Source of the DNA: an uncultured Veillonellaceae bacterium
GTDB lineage: Bacteria > Bacillota > Negativicutes > Selenomonadales > Selenomonadaceae
NCBI GenBank assembly: GCA_902801565.1
Contig: CADCIX010000009.1
Span: 1 to 64,000, forward strand
Direction of reading: 5' to 3'
DNA: 64,000 bases
Notes under the pieces: generated by a model
The model's input: only the letters and a program-made list of their open reading frames with translations
Told to the model about the DNA's origin: nothing
Databases searched by the model: none
Program-made: the position numbers and the translations under genes
Shown: positions 25,051 to 33,706 of the stretch, piece by piece
Position numbering within the stretch: the first letter of the stretch is position 1
Layout of the letters: every line of letters starts with the position of its first letter

Positions 25051-27075
25051 ATGAACAGGATTTTGAATACTTGGACAAGAACCCTGAGCCTGGCTGTGCT
25101 CCTTTTGGCCGTCGTGCTTTCGGGCAGCTGCAATCACGGGGAAGCCGCTCCGACCGACCTCAAGCAGCTGAATTTCTCCGATGACTCCATAAATGATGAC
25201 CGCTGGCTGATCTATTGGTACATCTGCGGCACGGATCTGGAAACCAGGTTCGGCTCGGCCACGGAGGATCTCGCCGAACTGATGGACGTGGACCTTCCTC
25301 CCAATGTGAAGGTCCTCATCCAGACGGGCGGCGCGGAAGAATGGCAGAACGACGTCGTGAAAAACAATGCCATCGGGCGTTACCTTTATGACGGGACGGG
25401 GCTCTACGAGCTGGAGCAGCTGAAAGATGGGGATATGGGCTCTCCCGACACCCTTGCAGATTTCCTGGAATACGGGGACGATAACTTCGACCCGGATTAC
25501 CGCGTCTTCATCTTTTGGGACCATGGCGGCGGCAGCGCAGGCGGTATCTGCTACGATGAGCGCACCGAGAATTCCCTGAGCCTGAATGATATCCGGGATG
25601 CCTTTACCGATATCTATGATGCTGCCCCGGAGGATCCCCCCTTTGAGCTCATCGGCTTCGATGCCTGCCTCATGGCAACCTATGATGTGGCCAACACCCT
25701 CCATGGCTTTGCCCGCTATATGACGGCATCGGAAGAAACCGTCCCAGGGAACGGCTTTGCCTACGACCTCTGGGTGGATGCCCTGGCAGAGGATCCCTCC
25801 ATGGACGGCGCGGAATTGGGAGAGGTCATCTGTGACACCTATATGGACGGCTGCAAGGATGAGGAAACCGACGACACGATTACCCTGTCCGTCATCGACC
25901 TCTCAAAGGTCCCTGCTCTTCGCAGGGCATATGAGGCCTACGGCGCGGAGGCGCTCCGTTGTGCGGCGAAAGACCCCAAGGGATTCTTCTCCGCCTTCGG
26001 CCGAAATGCCAAACGAGCAGAAAATTACGGCGGCAATACCCGTGACCAGGGATATTCCGACATGGTGGACCTGGGCGATCTGGCGCAGGAAACGCGCCGT
26101 CTCCTGCCGGGAACCTCACAGGATCTCATCCGTGCCGTCGATGATGCCGTGGTCTACAAAGTCCATGGCGATTACCGCAGGAATGGAAGCGGCATCTCCG
26201 GCTTCTACTCCTATGATAACGACGAGGACACCTATGAAGAATACGCAGACCAGGACGCAGCTCCCCTGCCGATGAAATGCCTGTACTATTACCTCATCTA
26301 TGGGGAACTTCCCCAGGAAGCAGACCAGTTCCTGACAGGCAATGCCGGGCAGGGATCGTCCTCCATCCTGCATCCGGTCCTTTCCCAGGCCCATAAGATG
26401 TTCACACTGTCCGATCTCGAGGATCTTCCTGTGGACATTGACGATAAAGGAAATTCCTTCATCACACTGTCAGAGGAACAGATGGACCTGCTTTCCGCTG
26501 TCCATTGCAATCTGATTGCCGTGGGCATCGAGGAGGATATCCTGCTTAATCTCGGCAGCGATGCCGATATTGACGGGGATTGGAATACCGGCGTATTCAA
26601 GGACAATTTCCGCGGTGTCTGGCCCATGCTGGACGGACATCCCGTGTACATCGAGATCACGGCGGAGGAAGACGACTACAATCTCTATTCCGTCCCCATC
26701 AAGCTCAACGGCGAGGAATGCAACCTGCAGGTATCCTATTCCTTTACCGACGAGAAGTACCATATCCTGGGGGCGCGCAAGAGAATCGAGGACAACGGCA
26801 TGGGCAGCCGCAAGCTCGTCAGGCTCAAGAAGGGCGACAAGATCACCACCATCCATTATGTCATGACGATTTCCGGTGATGACGATGAGTATACTCCGGT
26901 AGATGTAGATACCTTCACCATCGGCAGCCAACCGAAAATGGAAGACGAGGATCTTGGGGACGGCGACTACTTCTACTATTTCGAATTCATAAGCCCCACA
27001 GGCAACAGCGCCACTTCCAAACTCGTGGAGTTCACAGTGGAAAATGGTGACATCTTCACCTCGGTAGATGACTGA
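25051..27075 (+). CDS. Clostripain-family (C11) lipoprotein peptidase, copy 2
   Basis: Lipoprotein of 674 residues, paralogous to the protein at 22377-24395 over its whole length. It has a lipobox (VVLSGSC), catalytic H158 in FIFWDHGGGSAGG and C206 in ELIGFDACLMATYDVA, and the same C-terminal beta-rich domain. Both dyad residues are present, so both copies should be active. GGAG lies eight to nine bases before the ATG at 25051. The two copies differ most near residues 30-60 and in the region after NYGGNTRDQGYS, which may set different substrates. Confidence 0.9.
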   Translation: MNRILNTWTRTLSLAVLLLAVVLSGSCNHGEAAPTDLKQLNFSDDSINDDRWLIYWYICGTDLETRFGSATEDLAELMDVDLPPNVKVLIQTGGAEEWQNDVVKNNAIGRYLYDGTGLYELEQLKDGDMGSPDTLADFLEYGDDNFDPDYRVFIFWDHGGGSAGGICYDERTENSLSLNDIRDAFTDIYDAAPEDPPFELIGFDACLMATYDVANTLHGFARYMTASEETVPGNGFAYDLWVDALAEDPSMDGAELGEVICDTYMDGCKDEETDDTITLSVIDLSKVPALRRAYEAYGAEALRCAAKDPKGFFSAFGRNAKRAENYGGNTRDQGYSDMVDLGDLAQETRRLLPGTSQDLIRAVDDAVVYKVHGDYRRNGSGISGFYSYDNDEDTYEEYADQDAAPLPMKCLYYYLIYGELPQEADQFLTGNAGQGSSSILHPVLSQAHKMFTLSDLEDLPVDIDDKGNSFITLSEEQMDLLSAVHCNLIAVGIEEDILLNLGSDADIDGDWNTGVFKDNFRGVWPMLDGHPVYIEITAEEDDYNLYSVPIKLNGEECNLQVSYSFTDEKYHILGARKRIEDNGMGSRKLVRLKKGDKITTIHYVMTISGDDDEYTPVDVDTFTIGSQPKMEDEDLGDGDYFYYFEFISPTGNSATSKLVEFTVENGDIFTSVDD

Positions 27076-27089
27076 ACCTCAAGCGCACT

Positions 27090-27137
27090 AAAAAACTCCA
27101 CCGCTCCGAATTTTTCGGCATGCGGTGGAGTTTTCAT
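27090..27137 (+). terminator. Terminator after the second C11 gene
   Basis: AAAAACTCCACCGC / GCGGTGGAGTTTT with a 17-base loop and T-rich tail. Confidence 0.85.
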
Positions 27138-27195
27138 TTATTGCATTTTGTGATATAACAAAGGATGAAAAAACTAACGAATGGAAGGATAGCAT

Positions 27196-28104
27196 ATGAA
27201 AAACATGCAAAAAGCCGCCATGGCCGTGTGCCTGGCCGGGATTCTTTTTTCCGGGTGCGGCAACCAGAAGGCAGCCACCCCTCCCCCTGCAACGAGCGCA
27301 CAGGAAGCGACGGAAAAGGCGCAGGATACAGCGCAGCCTCCAAAGAAAGAAGCCCCGGCACAGCTTCCGTACATCACGGCCACAAAGGATTTCGACAATC
27401 TGCAGTTGGGGGCTGCGGACATTCCCGTATATGATGCGTATACCCTGGCGGAGCGCCGTGCAAATGGCATGACAACTGTCCTGCCGGAGCTCACGCCCTA
27501 TCAGGAAAAGAAGGTGGCCTACCTCACCTTCGATGATGGGCCGGATGACGTGAATACCCCTGCCATCCTCGAAATCCTGCGGCAGGAGAATGTCAAGGCA
27601 ACCTTTTATGTGGTGGGAAGGAGCGCGCTGACCTATCCCGATATCGTAAAGCAGATCTTCCTTGAGGGACACGCCATCGGGAACCACAGCTATGACCACG
27701 ATTACGACAGACTGTATGCTTCCGTGTCCCAATACCTTGAGGAAATGGAACACACCGATGAAATCCTGCACGGAATCATCGGTGTGCGACCCCTGGTCAC
27801 CCGCGCACCCGGCGGGCGCATTGGGCACTTCACGGAAGAATATGTGTCGGCCCTCGCTGCTAATGGATACGTGGAGCATGACTGGAATGTGAGCTCTGCC
27901 GACACGGCTCCCAACCATCCCGTGGCCCAGGACTTCATCGACAACATCGAGGGCCAGGCCACCATGGACAGCCCCATCATATTGATGCACTGCTCCTCCG
28001 GCCATGAGGAGACCGTGAAGGCTCTTCCGGGGATCATCCATGTCCTGAGGGACAGGGGATACGCCTTCGGCGTTGTGACGCCTATGACGCCACAGCCTTG
28101 GTAG
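27196..28104 (+). CDS. Polysaccharide deacetylase lipoprotein
   Basis: NodB-family deacetylase of 302 residues, predicted lipoprotein (lipobox LFSGC) with a proline/alanine-rich tether to about residue 60. NodB motifs are complete: TFDDGPDD (metal and base Asp), NHSYDHDY (two metal His), RAPGG, HDWNVSS and LMHCSSGHEET. It probably removes N-acetyl groups from peptidoglycan or another envelope polysaccharide, on the periplasmic face. GAAGGA precedes the ATG by about six bases. The last 23 bases overlap the convergent ligase gene. Confidence 0.92.
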   Translation: MKNMQKAAMAVCLAGILFSGCGNQKAATPPPATSAQEATEKAQDTAQPPKKEAPAQLPYITATKDFDNLQLGAADIPVYDAYTLAERRANGMTTVLPELTPYQEKKVAYLTFDDGPDDVNTPAILEILRQENVKATFYVVGRSALTYPDIVKQIFLEGHAIGNHSYDHDYDRLYASVSQYLEEMEHTDEILHGIIGVRPLVTRAPGGRIGHFTEEYVSALAANGYVEHDWNVSSADTAPNHPVAQDFIDNIEGQATMDSPIILMHCSSGHEETVKALPGIIHVLRDRGYAFGVVTPMTPQPW

Positions 28105-29431
28105 GTCTCATCCATTCTTCCAGCGCCTTCTGATCAATCTTGCCCCTGTCGTTCAGGGGCAATTCTTTTAGGAAGAATACATGGGATGGGACTTCCACGG
28201 CCTTGAGGTGCCGCCGGAGGGATTGGCGGATCTCCCGTTCCCCTGCATCGGGGTATTTCACCAGAAAGGCTGCCAGGTCGTCTCCCCGCCTGTCATCTTT
28301 GCAACGGAGCACCGCAGCTTCCCGGATGCCGGGCACTTTCAGCAGGGCATTCTCGATCCGGGTGATGCTGATCTTCACGCCACCCTTGTTGATCCATGCT
28401 TCCCTGCGCCCCCGGAAGATCAGTTCGCCCTTTTCGTTAAGGCAGCCCGTGTCCTTGACGGTGAAGGGAATCTCTATGCCGCTCACATGATAGGGCGTAT
28501 CCACATAGACCAGCCCGTCCTTGACGGAAAGGCGGATGCCGGGAAAGGGCTTCCCAAGGTTGGCAGGGTTTCTCTTCGGGTCATCGCAGAGGGCATAGGT
28601 GATGTAGTTCAGCTCGCTGGCGCCGTAGTAAAGAAAGATTTTTGACTGCGCAAAGATATGCATGAGCCTCTCAAGCACATGCTCGGACAAAAGCTGGGAG
28701 CCGGTGAAAATGGAACGCACGCCATTCACCGGCTCCCGAATGGTTTCCACGAGAATCTGGAGCTTTGCCGGAACGAGGTAGATGACGTTCACCTTCGCTT
28801 CCCGAAGAAGGTTCTCCCATTGATGATGGTGCATGCTGCGGCTCGTGATGATGCTGCCGCCCTCGTAGAGCACGGAGAGGAAACTGTTCAGATTTCCCGT
28901 GAAGCTCAGGCTTCCATGGAGAAATATCCTCGTTTCCCCGTCTACCATAAAAATCTCGTTCTGCACGGGAAAGAAATCCGCCCAGCTTCCATAGGTGCGG
29001 TACATAACCTTGGGAACCCCTGTGGAACCGGAGCTCAATACCCCCAGGATATCCGCCTCTATATGCTCCTGCAAGGGCAGCCCTGTGCCACGAAAGGAGA
29101 TGCCGTCTTTCCCCACCGACAGTATCCCCTGCAGGGAGTTTTCGCGCAAAATCTCCGACTGTTCCTGCGCAGAAAGCCCATGGTGCAGAAGAATGGGACG
29201 AAGGTTCCTTTTCTGCAGGGCAAGAAAGGCAGCTGCCTGTCCGAAAAAATCCTCGGCAAGCACCAGAATATTTCCCGAAATATTTAATGGCATCGTAGAT
29301 GCGAATTCATCCACCCGTTGAAGCATCTCTTGATAATTAATGTATTTCTCATCAATCTGGAGAAAGAGTTTTTCCGGGTGCATTCGGGTCTGGCGTTCCA
29401 ATAACGTATAATAATTTCTGATATCCTTCAT
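28082..29431 (-). CDS. AMP-dependent acyl-CoA/ACP synthetase (YhfT-like)
   Basis: ANL-superfamily ligase of 449 residues. The P-loop LGVLSSGSTGVPKVMYRT, the YYGASE motif, the DTGCLNEKGELIFRGRREAWI hinge and the catalytic C-terminal lysine in LPLNDRGKIDQKAL are all present. It activates a carboxylic acid as acyl-AMP and passes it to CoA or a carrier protein. The start ATG overlaps the thiolase stop (ATGA), with GGAG eight bases upstream. Last gene of a hotdog-BioY-thiolase-ligase operon; in Bacillus subtilis yhfU(bioY)-yhfT-yhfS is the comparable BirA-regulated set. The acid used is unknown, a pimelate-type or fatty acid being the natural guess. Confidence 0.88.
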   Translation of the reverse strand: MKDIRNYYTLLERQTRMHPEKLFLQIDEKYINYQEMLQRVDEFASTMPLNISGNILVLAEDFFGQAAAFLALQKRNLRPILLHHGLSAQEQSEILRENSLQGILSVGKDGISFRGTGLPLQEHIEADILGVLSSGSTGVPKVMYRTYGSWADFFPVQNEIFMVDGETRIFLHGSLSFTGNLNSFLSVLYEGGSIITSRSMHHHQWENLLREAKVNVIYLVPAKLQILVETIREPVNGVRSIFTGSQLLSEHVLERLMHIFAQSKIFLYYGASELNYITYALCDDPKRNPANLGKPFPGIRLSVKDGLVYVDTPYHVSGIEIPFTVKDTGCLNEKGELIFRGRREAWINKGGVKISITRIENALLKVPGIREAAVLRCKDDRRGDDLAAFLVKYPDAGEREIRQSLRRHLKAVEVPSHVFFLKELPLNDRGKIDQKALEEWMRPTKAVAS

Positions 29432-30579
29432 CTGCAACTCTCCACTAAAACCGCATTGCCCATACCGCCTGCCCCTGCGATGGACAGAAGCCCCTTTCCC
29501 CCTCCGACCATATCCAAAGAGCGAAGGAGATGCACCAATAGTACCGCGCCTGAAGCACCATAGGGATGGCCATAAGCCAGGGCCCCGCCCAGGCGGTTGT
29601 ACCGATCCGTCAGATGAGGATGGCTTCTCTCGAACAGCACATCGATGACGGCAAAAGCCTCATTGAACTCGATGGCTGCCAGATCCTCCCAGGAAAGCTC
29701 CGCACGCCCAAGGAGGAAATCCGCCGTCTCCATGGCGCCCCGCGGGCTTTCCAAGGGATTGCAGCCCCTGGAGGTGGCAGACAGGATCTGCGCCTTCGGA
29801 ATAGCCCCGGGATGCTGTTCCAGCCAGCGGCCAGACACCAACAAAGCAAACGCCGCGCCATCCATGGTATGGCAGGAGTTCCCTGCCGTCGTCACTCCAT
29901 GGGAACCAAGCAGCGGAGGCATGCGCTCCAGCAGAGCCTCGCTGATGGATGGGCGGGGGCCATCATCCCTTCCGCATTCCCCCATGGGAACCACGGAATC
30001 CGCCAAGAGCTTCGCTTCCTGTGCCGCAAGCGCCCGCCTGTGGCTCAGAAAAGCCCATCGGTCCAGCTCCCCACGGGAAATGCCCTCGGATTTTGCCACT
30101 CGTTCCGCGCCCTGCAGCATGGCCTTTTCAGAGATTTCCAGGGGAGAGAACTGCGCCATGTAATAGGAACCGTCTCCCCGCTCCGTCTCCCTGTATCGGG
30201 GATCTCTCGGGCTGTAGGTCCGCAGGGGCTGGAGGGAGATGCTCTCCGTTCCTCCCGCGATGCAGGAGTCCCAAAGGCCGCTTGCAAGCTGCGCGTATCC
30301 AAGGGAAAGTGCGGCAGCAGCCGATGCGCATTGGGTATCTACCGTGCATGCAGGAATCTCCTCCGGCAGACCCGCCATCAATGCCATGAGCCGTGTGAGG
30401 TTGCCCCCGGTTCCCACGGCATTGCCACCGAGGATGCCATCAACCTGCCGGATATCATGCCTTTCGCAAAGGCATCGGAGGAGTTTCCCGCCGAATTCCT
30501 CCGGCCGCATATGGGATAGCCCCTTGTTTCTGGCAGCCAGGGGCGTCCTCAGGGCATCCAGCACGTAAACGGGCATCAT
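29428..30579 (-). CDS. Thiolase-family protein lacking the C-terminal catalytic cysteine (YhfS-like)
   Basis: Thiolase-fold protein of 383 residues. The nucleophilic cysteine is C84 in VDTQCASAAAALS, and the histidines in FNEAFAVID and LGGALAYGHPYGASGA are kept. The second cysteine, normally in CxGGGxG near the C terminus, is replaced: the stretch reads SIAGAGGMGNAV. It may still form an acyl-enzyme but with altered condensation or cleavage chemistry. Start codons ATG ATG follow the bioY stop by one base, without a strong ribosome site, which suggests translational coupling. In the BirA-type operon. Confidence 0.85.
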   Translation of the reverse strand: MMPVYVLDALRTPLAARNKGLSHMRPEEFGGKLLRCLCERHDIRQVDGILGGNAVGTGGNLTRLMALMAGLPEEIPACTVDTQCASAAAALSLGYAQLASGLWDSCIAGGTESISLQPLRTYSPRDPRYRETERGDGSYYMAQFSPLEISEKAMLQGAERVAKSEGISRGELDRWAFLSHRRALAAQEAKLLADSVVPMGECGRDDGPRPSISEALLERMPPLLGSHGVTTAGNSCHTMDGAAFALLVSGRWLEQHPGAIPKAQILSATSRGCNPLESPRGAMETADFLLGRAELSWEDLAAIEFNEAFAVIDVLFERSHPHLTDRYNRLGGALAYGHPYGASGAVLLVHLLRSLDMVGGGKGLLSIAGAGGMGNAVLVESCR

Positions 30580-30580
30580 G

Positions 30581-31153
30581 TCAGGACCATCTCGCAAGTG
30601 TCTGGTTGACCTTCTTGCCCAGGAAAGCTGCCATGAGAGCCTTCATGATATCCCCCGGAATGAAGGGGAACACCGCCATGACCATGGCCTCCCAAAGACC
30701 AACATCCATCACCAGCACCATGGAGATCAGGCCTCCGAGATAGGTGATGGGAACTCCAAGGAGGATATTCGACAGAGCATAACGGCGAAAATTGATATCG
30801 CTTCCCTTGAACATGCTGACGAGGGGATAAGCGACGAGCCATGCGAAGATAAATCCTCCTGTAGGGCCGAAGAGCTTTCCCGGGCCTGCCGTACCGCCCA
30901 CAAAGACGGGAAGTCCCGCCACGCCCAAAAGTATGTAGACGAGAATCACGAGAAAGGTCTGCCTCGGCGTGAGTACAAAGGCGGTTACGCCCAATGCCAA
31001 TGTCAGGGCCGTGACCATTCCCGGCGTAAAGGGCAAGGGGAAGGAGATATAGGCCGTCACGCAGCAAAACGCCACGCAAATCGCCATCTTTGTCATGTCC
31101 CGGACGGAATCCCCCGTTCCCTGGAGCGAAACACTTTCTTCCTTTACCTGCAT
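30581..31153 (-). CDS. bioY: Biotin transporter substrate-binding subunit BioY
   Basis: S-component of an ECF-type biotin importer, 190 residues, about six membrane helices. The family signature is visible (FPLPFTPGMVTALTLALGVTAFVL and PVFVGGTAGPGKLFGPTGGFIFAWL). It captures biotin in the inner membrane and works alone or with a shared EcfAAT module, which is not in the window. The ATG at 31153 is inside the end of the preceding gene (overlap about 10 bases); another ATG at 31165 is possible. Second gene of the operon controlled by the BirA-like operator. Confidence 0.93.
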   Translation of the reverse strand: MQVKEESVSLQGTGDSVRDMTKMAICVAFCCVTAYISFPLPFTPGMVTALTLALGVTAFVLTPRQTFLVILVYILLGVAGLPVFVGGTAGPGKLFGPTGGFIFAWLVAYPLVSMFKGSDINFRRYALSNILLGVPITYLGGLISMVLVMDVGLWEAMVMAVFPFIPGDIMKALMAAFLGKKVNQTLARWS

Positions 31154-31701
31154 GTTACAACACATCCTTCACATAAGATTTCCCTTTGGGAAAAGATTCG
31201 AAAGTTTTCCTTTGCCATGGGAACCACCCATAGCGGCTCCTCCGCAAAGGCGGGATGGCGGAAGCGCAGCTGCATTCTGCCGCATCTGCGGAAGGCGGCA
31301 TCCCCCAGCAATCGTTCCAGCAACAGAAGCCCCGGCACGATGGGGTGCGCACCCTGATGCAAGGGATTCCTGTCCCCCGCCTTTTCCACGAACTCCGAGA
31401 TTTCGCTTTTAGAAAACACATGCCAAACGGCATGTTCCTTGATCTCCTCCGAAATCCCGAACCCGTTCCCCATTACAGACGCCGGACTCTGCTGCCCCGA
31501 CTGACGCAGCAGCATGGTAACCTTCAGTGTTTCCCCACTGCCCCGCACCTCCACCACAAGCACCCCATGACGATCCGACAGGACATGCAGGGGCTCCCTG
31601 CTGCCTTCCGCCAGATCCCTGCGCCAAAGAAGCTCCGCAATCTCCGCCCCCATATACCGTTCTCCCTTGAGGCCCGACAGCTCTCGTGCCAGTTCAAGCA
31701 A
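31144..31701 (-). CDS. MaoC-like hotdog dehydratase, first gene of the biotin operon
   Basis: Protein of 185 residues. The second half carries a MaoC-type hydratase motif, FSKSEISEFVEKAGDRNPLH followed by HPIVPGLLLLERLL, with the expected Asp/His pair at about D110 and H115; the first half has no family I recognise. Such enzymes hydrate or dehydrate enoyl/3-hydroxyacyl thioesters. The start is set at a TTG (31701) because GGAGGT precedes it by six bases, while the upstream TTG at 31737 has none. It overlaps bioY. Together with thiolase and ligase it could process an acyl chain. Confidence 0.7.
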   Translation of the reverse strand: MLELARELSGLKGERYMGAEIAELLWRRDLAEGSREPLHVLSDRHGVLVVEVRGSGETLKVTMLLRQSGQQSPASVMGNGFGISEEIKEHAVWHVFSKSEISEFVEKAGDRNPLHQGAHPIVPGLLLLERLLGDAAFRRCGRMQLRFRHPAFAEEPLWVVPMAKENFRIFSQREILCEGCVVTCR

Positions 31702-31756
31702 CCAACCACCTCCCGACACAGGCGCACCTTTTTGCAATCATTTCGTACAGTTTTTT

Positions 31757-31785
31757 ATTATAAGGAAAAACCAGGACAATGTCAA
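31757..31785 (-). promoter_or_regulatory. Consensus promoter of the biotin-type operon
   Basis: Minus strand: TTGACA (31785-31780), 17-base spacer, TATAAT (31762-31757). Both hexamers are perfect. The -35 box is inside the BirA-like operator. Confidence 0.85.
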
Positions 31786-31809
31786 CCAATAGATTGTTCA
31801 TGGTTAACG
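31780..31809. promoter_or_regulatory. BirA-type operator
   Basis: TGTCAACC (31780-31787), 14 bases, GGTTAACG (31802-31809). Each half differs from the BirA half-site (TGTTAACC / GGTTAACA) at one position, and the 14-base spacing is within the known range. It covers the -35 box of the operon promoter, as expected for repression by biotin-bound BirA. Confidence 0.75.
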
Positions 31810-31817
31810 ATAATAGA

Positions 31818-31866
31818 ATTTTACCATACAGGCAACCTTGCAAACAGGTTTCCTGTATGGTAAAAT
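31818..31866 (-). terminator. Hairpin at the end of the SCIFF maturase transcript
   Basis: Perfect 15-base arms ATTTTACCATACAGG (31818-31832) and CCTGTATGGTAAAAT (31852-31866). It separates the SCIFF locus from the biotin-operon promoter. A second GC-rich stem lies at 31925-31956 (GCCCGCCT / AGGCGGGC). Confidence 0.65.
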
Positions 31867-31965
31867 GAGCATAAAGAGGACACCGCCTAGCGGTTCGCCC
31901 TTGGTTTGGACAAAATTTTCTTTCGCCCGCCTTGAGTTTCGCAGCTAGAGGCGGGCTATTTCTTT

Positions 31966-33333
31966 TTAGTCTGCTTCCATGCTCTCCAATGCCAGTAGAG
32001 ACTGCACCAGGATAGCGCATTCCAGGCGTTTCTTCTGGATTTCGCAGCCCACCTCGTAGGGCTTCCTGATATCATCGTGGAAGAGATCCGCGTTCGCATG
32101 GCAGCCGCCGCTGCAGAAGAACCTCGCCCAGCAGTCGCGGCATTTTTCCTTGTTCAATACATGGGACTCGCGGAAATACCGGGGCAGATCCTTGTCCTGC
32201 ACGCCGTCGTAGACATTGCCCAGCTTGTACCGGCCACGTCCCACGAACTGATGACAGGGATAGAGGTCGCCGTTCTCCGCCACGGCATAGTACTCATGCC
32301 CCGCACCGCAGCCTGCCAAACGCTTGGCCACGCAGGGGCCGTTGGAGAGATCCATGTTGAAATGGAAGAAGAAGAAATCCTTCCCCTCCCGATGGCGTTT
32401 CAAATAGGTCTTCGTGAGACGATCATACTCCTCGAAGATGCGCGGCAGATCCTCCTCGGTGAAACCGAGGGGATTGTCCTTGAGCACCACGGGCTCCACG
32501 GAAAGGATATCGAAGCCTGCATCATTCATCGCAAGAACGTCCTCGGTGAAATCCATGTTCTCCTTCGTATAGGTTCCCCGCATGTAATAATTCTTTCCAT
32601 CACGGGAATCCACGAGTTTCCTGAAATTTTTGATCACGCGGTCATAACTGCCATTCCCGGCCACGTCCGGACGCATCCTGTCATGGACTTCCTTGCGCCC
32701 GTCCACGCTCAGGACCACGGAAATGTTGTTGTCATTGAGCCACTGGATGATGCTGTCCTTCAGGAGAACCCCGTTGGTGGTGAGGGTGAGCTTGAAGGCC
32801 TTTCCCGTTTCCTTCTCCCTCTGGCGCACATATTCCGTAACGGCCTTGACCGTTTCCATGTTCATGAGGGGCTCCCCGCCGAAGAAGTCGATCTCACAGT
32901 GCTTCCGCGGGCCGCAATGGGCAATGAGATAGTCCACTGCCGCCCGTCCCACCTCGGGACTCATGACGGCACGCTCGCCACCATAGCTGCCCCCGTCGCC
33001 GAAGCAATAGCGGCAGCGGAGATTGCAGTCCTGTGCCACCATGAGGCAAAGGGATTTCACAAGCCCTGTCTGCTTAAAGGTCGGCGGAACATCGATGTCC
33101 GGTGCGAAAAGCTGCCCTGCATCCATAAGGGAATGAAGCTCCCCAAGAGCCTCCGAAAGCTCCTTTTCGGAATATTCCCTCCGAAGGGACGCCACTACCT
33201 CCTCATCGTTGCCCCCTGTGAAGATGTCCATCATATCGTAAATCATCCTGTCGATGACATGCACCGCGCCGCTGTTGATATCCAGCAGGATATAGGTATC
33301 GCCCTGCCTAAACTTGTGAATCCTGTCTTTCAT
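31966..33333 (-). CDS. scfB: Radical-SAM SCIFF peptide maturase
   Basis: Radical SAM/SPASM enzyme of 455 residues that forms thioether links on the SCIFF peptide encoded upstream. The SAM-cluster motif is CNLRCRYCFGDGG; the SPASM cysteines are in CGAGHEYYAVAENGDLYPC and in CRDCWARFFCSGGC. The N terminus (IHKFRQGDTYILLDINSGAV) resembles the peptide-recognition part of such maturases. GGAG precedes the ATG at 33333. About 165 bases and a terminator hairpin separate it from the precursor gene, as expected when the peptide is made in excess over the enzyme. Confidence 0.95.
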   Translation of the reverse strand: MKDRIHKFRQGDTYILLDINSGAVHVIDRMIYDMMDIFTGGNDEEVVASLRREYSEKELSEALGELHSLMDAGQLFAPDIDVPPTFKQTGLVKSLCLMVAQDCNLRCRYCFGDGGSYGGERAVMSPEVGRAAVDYLIAHCGPRKHCEIDFFGGEPLMNMETVKAVTEYVRQREKETGKAFKLTLTTNGVLLKDSIIQWLNDNNISVVLSVDGRKEVHDRMRPDVAGNGSYDRVIKNFRKLVDSRDGKNYYMRGTYTKENMDFTEDVLAMNDAGFDILSVEPVVLKDNPLGFTEEDLPRIFEEYDRLTKTYLKRHREGKDFFFFHFNMDLSNGPCVAKRLAGCGAGHEYYAVAENGDLYPCHQFVGRGRYKLGNVYDGVQDKDLPRYFRESHVLNKEKCRDCWARFFCSGGCHANADLFHDDIRKPYEVGCEIQKKRLECAILVQSLLALESMEAD

Positions 33334-33460
33334 GGTTCTTGCCTGTACTCCTTCATTTCGCAGAAAACTCCGTGCGAAACGGTGTTTCGCACTACGCCCT
33401 TACACGAAATCTAACCGATCCTGCGCCCCTTCGGGCTTGACTCGCTAAGATTTCATAGTA

Positions 33461-33488
33461 AAAAAAGCCTTTCCCCCGAAGGAAAGGC
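33461..33488 (-). terminator. Attenuating terminator between SCIFF precursor and maturase
   Basis: GCCTTTCC / GGAAAGGC (33467-33474 with 33481-33488) followed on the minus strand by TTTTTT. The remaining 33339-33460 holds a second hairpin, GTGCGAAAC / GTTTCGCAC (about 33371-33393), and no gene. Confidence 0.8.
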
Positions 33489-33500
33489 CCTTTCATTCAT

Positions 33501-33638
33501 TTACTTCTCGCAAACCTGGTTGCCGACGGTGCAAGATGTCTTGCACGCGGACTGGCAGGAGGCCTGACACTCCCCGCAACCTCCCGTCTTCAACGTCTTC
33601 TGCATGGTGGGTTTGTTTACTGTGACAATGTGTTTCAT
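33501..33638 (-). CDS. scfA: SCIFF six-cysteine ranthipeptide precursor
   Basis: Peptide of exactly 45 residues with six cysteines in its C-terminal half (GGCGECQASCQSACKTSC, then the last in QVCEK), the defining pattern of SCIFF (six cysteines in forty-five residues). It is the substrate of the radical-SAM maturase directly downstream. N-terminal leader begins MKHIVTVNKPTMQKTLKTGG. The ATG at 33638 has GAGGA upstream. SCIFF is almost universal in Clostridia; its function may be in quorum sensing or stress, not settled. Confidence 0.95.
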   Translation of the reverse strand: MKHIVTVNKPTMQKTLKTGGCGECQASCQSACKTSCTVGNQVCEK

Positions 33639-33677
33639 TTCCAAATCCTCCTCGTTCCGATAAAAAAGTGTATTTTG

Positions 33678-33706
33678 ATTATACCACCTCAAGGGGGAAC
33701 ATGCAA
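33678..33706 (-). promoter_or_regulatory. Promoter of the SCIFF precursor
   Basis: Minus strand TTGCAT (33706-33701), 17-base spacer, extended -10 TGGTATAAT (TATAAT at 33683-33678). Confidence 0.7.

Follow-up and report, generated by a model that had tools for sequence, protein, structure and literature searches.

The 64,000-nucleotide stretch of DNA studied here (the window) comprises positions 1 to 64,000 of contig CADCIX010000009.1 from an uncultured, gut-type Veillonellaceae bacterium of the family Selenomonadaceae. On its minus strand, a palindrome at positions 31780-31809 overlaps the promoter of an operon encoding a hotdog-fold protein, the biotin transporter subunit BioY, a thiolase homologue and an acyl-CoA ligase homologue (hotdog-bioY-thiolase-ligase). 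From sequence comparisons, we consider it very likely, with a probability of about 0.9, that this palindrome is an operator through which the biotin ligase BirA represses the operon when biotin is plentiful. The site would be an ordinary BirA operator exerting the expected kind of control, an assignment that is well supported. The mechanism itself is already known; what is added here is the clade, a -35 box that operator and promoter share, and the set of genes.

For this organism we infer a cycle of BirA binding, dimerisation, repression and induction. With plentiful biotin, BirA would make biotinyl-5'-AMP, dimerise and bind the palindrome via its N-terminal helix-turn-helix (HTH); as the -35 hexamer is part of the right half-site, RNA polymerase would thereby be excluded and hotdog-bioY-thiolase-ligase would be off. 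With scarce biotin, BirA would be busy as a ligase and vacate the operator, and BioY and three acyl-CoA-type enzymes would be made.

Predicted operator, promoter and BirA

The predicted operator reads CGTTAACC-N14-GGTTGACA on the minus strand (31809-31780), with half-sites at 31809-31802 and 31787-31780; its plus-strand form (31780-31809) is TGTCAACC-N14-GGTTAACG. The sigma-70-type promoter on the same strand (31785-31757) consists of the -35 box TTGACA (31785-31780), a 17-nt spacer and the -10 box TATAAT (31762-31757), and its -35 box sits inside the right half-site. It was the only promoter-like site in 27000-33500 with 12/12 matching positions. A leader of about 50 nt lies between TATAAT and the Shine-Dalgarno sequence GGGAGG (31714-31709) of the hotdog gene, which has its TTG start at 31701. 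A preliminary description of this DNA had placed a BirA-type palindrome over the TTGACA box of a perfect TTGACA-N17-TATAAT promoter in front of hotdog-bioY-thiolase-ligase. Both were found as described, and downstream on that strand come four open reading frames (ORFs) that overlap at their ends.

The inverted GTTAAC-like half-sites, 14 nt apart, and the overlap with the promoter of an operon containing bioY correspond to a BirA operator. The BirA site reported for Streptococcus suis bioY, TGTTAACC-N14-GGATAACA (PMC4877710), agrees with the present one in its half-sites and in its 14-nt spacer. The two differ in location, since the S. suis site covers the predicted transcription start (PMC4877710), whereas the present one covers the -35 box. 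The palindrome by itself is weak evidence: at up to three mismatches it is moderately rare, with 0.28 expected per window. The joint pattern TATA..GTCAAC..GTWNAC was found once in the window and in none of 100 shuffles; the whole genome of 2.7 Mb likewise has a single match (1 forward, 0 reverse). In the scan of this genome that the preliminary description had proposed, two other sites, C44:3937-3966 (2 mismatches) and C1:108009-108038 (3 mismatches), were considered as second BirA targets and rejected as chance matches, the backwards control giving 2 per strand. The former (genome G000; L003 1501-1530) is a perfect-armed palindrome, TGTGAACC-N14-GGTTCACA, which by eye adjoins an integrase-like ORF and is probably unrelated.

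The genome encodes one PF03099 protein, the biotin ligase BirA. The preliminary description had named an N-terminal HTH in BirA as a point to check, and the protein carries one (HTH_11, PF08279, E 3.6e-19, residues 3-55), together with the ligase domain and a C-terminal domain, which makes it a group II BirA. In a family sample of 121 genomes, a BirA match was present in 117 and missing from 4, one match being fragmented. The pattern TATA-N16..19-GTCAAC-N15..19-GTWNAC gave 182 matches across these genomes, whereas its backwards control gave 18. Among the 146 distinct matches listed, 62 lay before bioY or hotdog-bioY, 45 before bioB and 39 elsewhere, so in related genomes the motif is found at bioB as well as at bioY. 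The pattern was present in 155 of the 200 genomes of a class-wide sample. A second conserved element, GTCAACCCTTRTCCGAC..TTGTARAC, with wider spacing, was seen repeatedly in one genus (g9) at places other than bioY and bioB (G056:C7:67967, G068:C1:372116, G077:C29:68260, G084:C16:97313, G096:C1:254737, G106:C5:55188, G111:C3:319346 and G119:C1:793529) and may belong to another regulator.

Natural loss of the HTH provided a comparison. The BirA match begins past the HTH in seven family genomes (G012, G018, G031, G045, G059, G062 and G078), none of which has a pattern match, compared with 99 of the 114 others (Fisher 2.7e-6, a p value that is not tree-corrected). G018, G045 and G062 belong to one genus and G012 and G078 to another, so there were fewer loss events than genomes. 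G059 has kept the -35 half, and its left half is TGTGTCCT. Six further genomes of the class have an HTH-less BirA (G126, G140, G144, G172, G224 and G260), and five of them are without a pattern match; the class-wide HTH counts cover the matches listed plus 16 chosen, mostly low-scoring genomes that were re-queried. These losses also bear on the idea that the palindrome is used by another regulator of biotin genes, of the BioR, BioQ or BioL type. Such regulators occur in other clades (BioR, PMC11089781; BioL, PMC12915131; BioQ, PMC6593275), but the sequence and N14 spacing agree with the S. suis BirA site, and none of the seven family genomes with an HTH-less BirA has a site; on these two counts the explanation is improbable.

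Conservation of the predicted operator at bioY loci

Of the 121 family genomes, 117 contain bioY; the analysis covered 112 bioY loci, each from a different genome. Within 800 bp upstream of bioY, mismatches to TGTTAACC-N-GGTTAACA were counted at different spacers. At most four mismatches were found at 40 of the 112 loci with a spacer of 14, the value that stands out among the relatives, at 17 with a spacer of 15 and at 1-6 with spacers of 10-13 or 16-19; the reversed pattern gave 4. Because the right half doubles as the -35 box, promoters were then selected on TTGACN and a -10 box alone, ignoring the left half and excluding genomes with a known HTH-less BirA. Of the 96 promoters that precede bioY or hotdog, 83 had a left half GTNWAC at N13-15 (N13 in 12, N14 in 56 and N15 in 15), which corresponds to 83 of 95 loci and to 24 of 26 genera; among the other promoters of the same loci, 0 of 52 had it. 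The palindrome is thus kept across relatives, the comparison to which the preliminary description had also pointed. Since the right half also selects -35 boxes, a weight matrix refined with the matches it had found was not taken as proof.

These counts decide against the view that a strong -35 box was extended to a palindrome by chance and that no regulator binds it. The expectation per window given above would allow for such an extension, and in the genome the backwards control is as frequent as the minor matches; the contrast between bioY/hotdog promoters and the others, together with the excess of genome-wide matches over the control (182 against 18), has already refuted it, and we regard it as very improbable. 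Among the genomes that fail the left-half test are four from a single genus (G058, G085, G102 and G120), each of which has a pair of GTTRAC-like copies 6 bp apart. On our reading of these sequences, the first copy serves in the -35 box and the second lets the operator keep N14, an arrangement which suggests that operator spacing is maintained separately from the promoter.

Several observations weigh against BirA control of this site. The half-sites of the window palindrome agree at only 6 of 8 positions. Thirteen of the 96 bioY/hotdog promoters have no left half at N13-15 (8 of the 12 loci with a promoter yet without this left half belong to genus g13), and 16 of the 112 bioY loci lack a promoter of this kind in their vicinity and hence went uncounted. 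Fifteen of the 114 genomes not known to have an HTH-less BirA contain no pattern match. G224 has an HTH-less BirA yet five pattern matches and is, on these data, a real exception. Some of its close relatives have two BirA matches (G197), and a second, regulatory BirA may be absent from the G224 assembly.

Control through RNA structure (an attenuator or riboswitch) instead of an operator is the least probable explanation: a very stable hairpin (31819-31865; z -6.3 for 31810-31975, minus strand) lies near the operator, but it is upstream of the promoter and so outside the transcript from this promoter, the leader is short, and a search of 31380-32100 (E up to 1) gave no Rfam match. This near-perfect long hairpin, TTTTACCATACAGG-N19-CCTGTATGGTAAAA, directly upstream of the operator, has one copy in the genome and is perhaps the terminator of the upstream gene. 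The upstream neighbour is a SCIFF-type radical SAM maturase (TIGR03974, 614 bits) in the stretch 31966-33692 (minus strand), and a Cys-rich ORF at 33501-33692 (minus strand) resembles, by eye, the SCIFF peptide of the radical SAM maturase.

Genes of the operon

All four genes are on the minus strand. The first (31144-31701) encodes a MaoC-like (double-hotdog) hydratase homologue of 185 aa; its longest ORF begins at 31737, and the TTG was taken as the start. It is followed by bioY, the substrate-binding subunit of the biotin transporter (30581-31165; PF02632, 108 bits), a thiolase homologue with a C-terminal Cys to Ala replacement (29428-30597; PF00108/PF02803, TIGR01930 above cut-off) and an AMP-forming acyl-CoA ligase homologue (28082-29437; PF00501/PF13193). 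By Pfam, bioY thus stands with thiolase-type and acyl-CoA-ligase-type genes, as in a yhfUTS-type operon. The NCBIfam equivalog cut-offs were missed, at 201 of 498 bits for the thiolase against PRK06690 and 147 of 518 bits for the ligase against PRK07638, its best model; we take these Bacillus-type models to represent YhfS and YhfT. The two proteins are therefore called YhfS-like and YhfT-like by gene position, and were not filed as orthologues. Among the named relatives are Mitsuokella, Selenomonas, Anaerovibrio, Schwartzia and Quinella; the nearest named record is RUG11858, a metagenome-assembled genome (MAG) of an uncultured Veillonellaceae bacterium, with a thiolase 71% identical.

The hotdog protein matched no Pfam family at threshold, and PF01575 gave no match at E up to 1; PF01575 matched 6 of 33 relatives (best E 0.0072). 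The protein was filed as MaoC-like only, for want of that match. A profile search found PhaJ-type hydratases, 1iq6 (E 1.4e-4) and 3ir3 (E 4.6e-4), and the structure model (pLDDT 89.9) has a double-hotdog fold over residues 1-184. Compared with HtdX of Mycobacterium tuberculosis (3wew), the model gave Z 15.6 and rmsd 2.7 over 163 aligned residues at 15% identity; acyl-ACP/acyl-CoA thioesterases were also present in the structure comparison (VIA-align) at Z ~10-11, under the best hydratases. D110, N112 and H115 of the GDxNPxH motif are invariant in 33 sequences, and its Asp and His are presumably the catalytic residues. The protein thus shares the double-hotdog fold and D-x-N-x-x-H with the MaoC/enoyl-CoA hydratase 2 proteins PhaJ and HtdX, but is divergent from that family in sequence.

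The thiolase homologue contains the motifs QCASA, NEAFA and GHPYGASG. The C-terminal thiolase Cys is the catalytic acid/base. In alignments, the C-terminal motif SIAGAGGMG has Ala at the position of this Cys in solved thiolases, in the window protein as well as in all readable Selenomonadaceae rows, and the reaction may differ from that of a normal thiolase.

Two gene orders were found, hotdog-bioY-thiolase-ligase and bioY-ligase-hotdog-thiolase (Anaerovibrio, G033), and hotdog, thiolase and ligase also occur without a bioY match, for example in Quinella (L262). The operator-promoter heads thiolase-ligase without a bioY match at L249 (4424) and L272 (4402), and hotdog-thiolase-ligase without one at L257 (3827), which indicates that the enzyme module by itself is a BirA-type target. 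Outside the Selenomonadaceae, it precedes hotdog-bioY-thiolase-ligase in a Clostridiales MAG (L294, 92-3742) and, in a genome of Clostridioides (L282), bioY-thiolase-ligase. The L294 hotdog protein is a distant relative (20%) with D-x-NPIH.

The operon of Bacillus subtilis has the gene order bioY-yhfT-yhfS. Repression of bioY, yhfS and yhfT by BirA is described for B. subtilis and Staphylococcus aureus (review, PMC11089781), and the arrangement predicted here has in common with the B. subtilis type that BirA controls bioY along with thiolase-type and ligase-type genes; the window operon differs in its extra hydratase gene and in a thiolase and ligase far under the cut-offs of the best Bacillus-type models. 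In S. aureus, BirA represses bioY and yhfS-yhfT within a regulon of bioO, bioY and yhfS-yhfT (PMC6391492), in keeping with the earlier statement that such control is known in Firmicutes. The bioY, thiolase-type and acyl-CoA-ligase-type targets and a palindromic operator in the promoter are alike (PMC6391492), whereas here they appear as a single operon led by a putative MaoC-like hydratase, in a member of the Selenomonadaceae with no bioB or bioD found. Our literature search found no report of BirA operators in Negativicutes or Selenomonadaceae, and an earlier prediction for the clade may exist.

Biotin physiology and the role of the enzyme module

The genome is 99.8% complete. The pathway search covered bioB, bioD and bioA. 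No bioB was found above cut-off in the genome (the best match, the ORF at L196 1459-2583, we take to be HydE-like), bioD had no match, and for bioA there were only bioA-like matches below cut-off. The organism is thus probably a biotin auxotroph dependent on BioY, and the extra enzymes are therefore unlikely to feed biotin synthesis in it. Supply of pimeloyl-CoA by hotdog-thiolase-ligase was considered and is disfavoured in this organism on the same grounds. Among the family loci, thiolase and ligase stood beside bioY at 7 of 15 bioB-lacking and 28 of 97 bioB-bearing loci (Fisher 0.23, not significant), so these counts show no link of the pair either to bioB or to its absence.

The finding would extend BirA control to the Selenomonadaceae, with a natural-loss test in which an HTH-less BirA mostly goes with an absence of sites. 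Less ordinary are the enzymes that accompany BioY: in a genome without bioB or bioD, the operon carries a MaoC-like hydratase with no Pfam family and a thiolase homologue without the C-terminal Cys. This sharpens an old loose end, the role of the BirA-controlled yhfS/yhfT-type enzymes, which are joined here by a hydratase; their presence in such a genome argues against a biotin-making role. As a tentative proposal, which we hold to be possible though doubtful, BirA would govern not only biotin uptake but also an acyl-CoA module of three enzymes (ligase, thiolase homologue and MaoC-type hydratase) with no part in biotin synthesis, since the module is kept without bioB and lies behind the same operator without bioY; it would then form part of a starvation programme or of catabolite rescue. 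If this is true, the module may elongate or remodel acyl chains without the biotin-dependent acetyl-CoA carboxylase during biotin starvation or, alternatively, may restore side-chain-shortened biotin catabolites to biotin.
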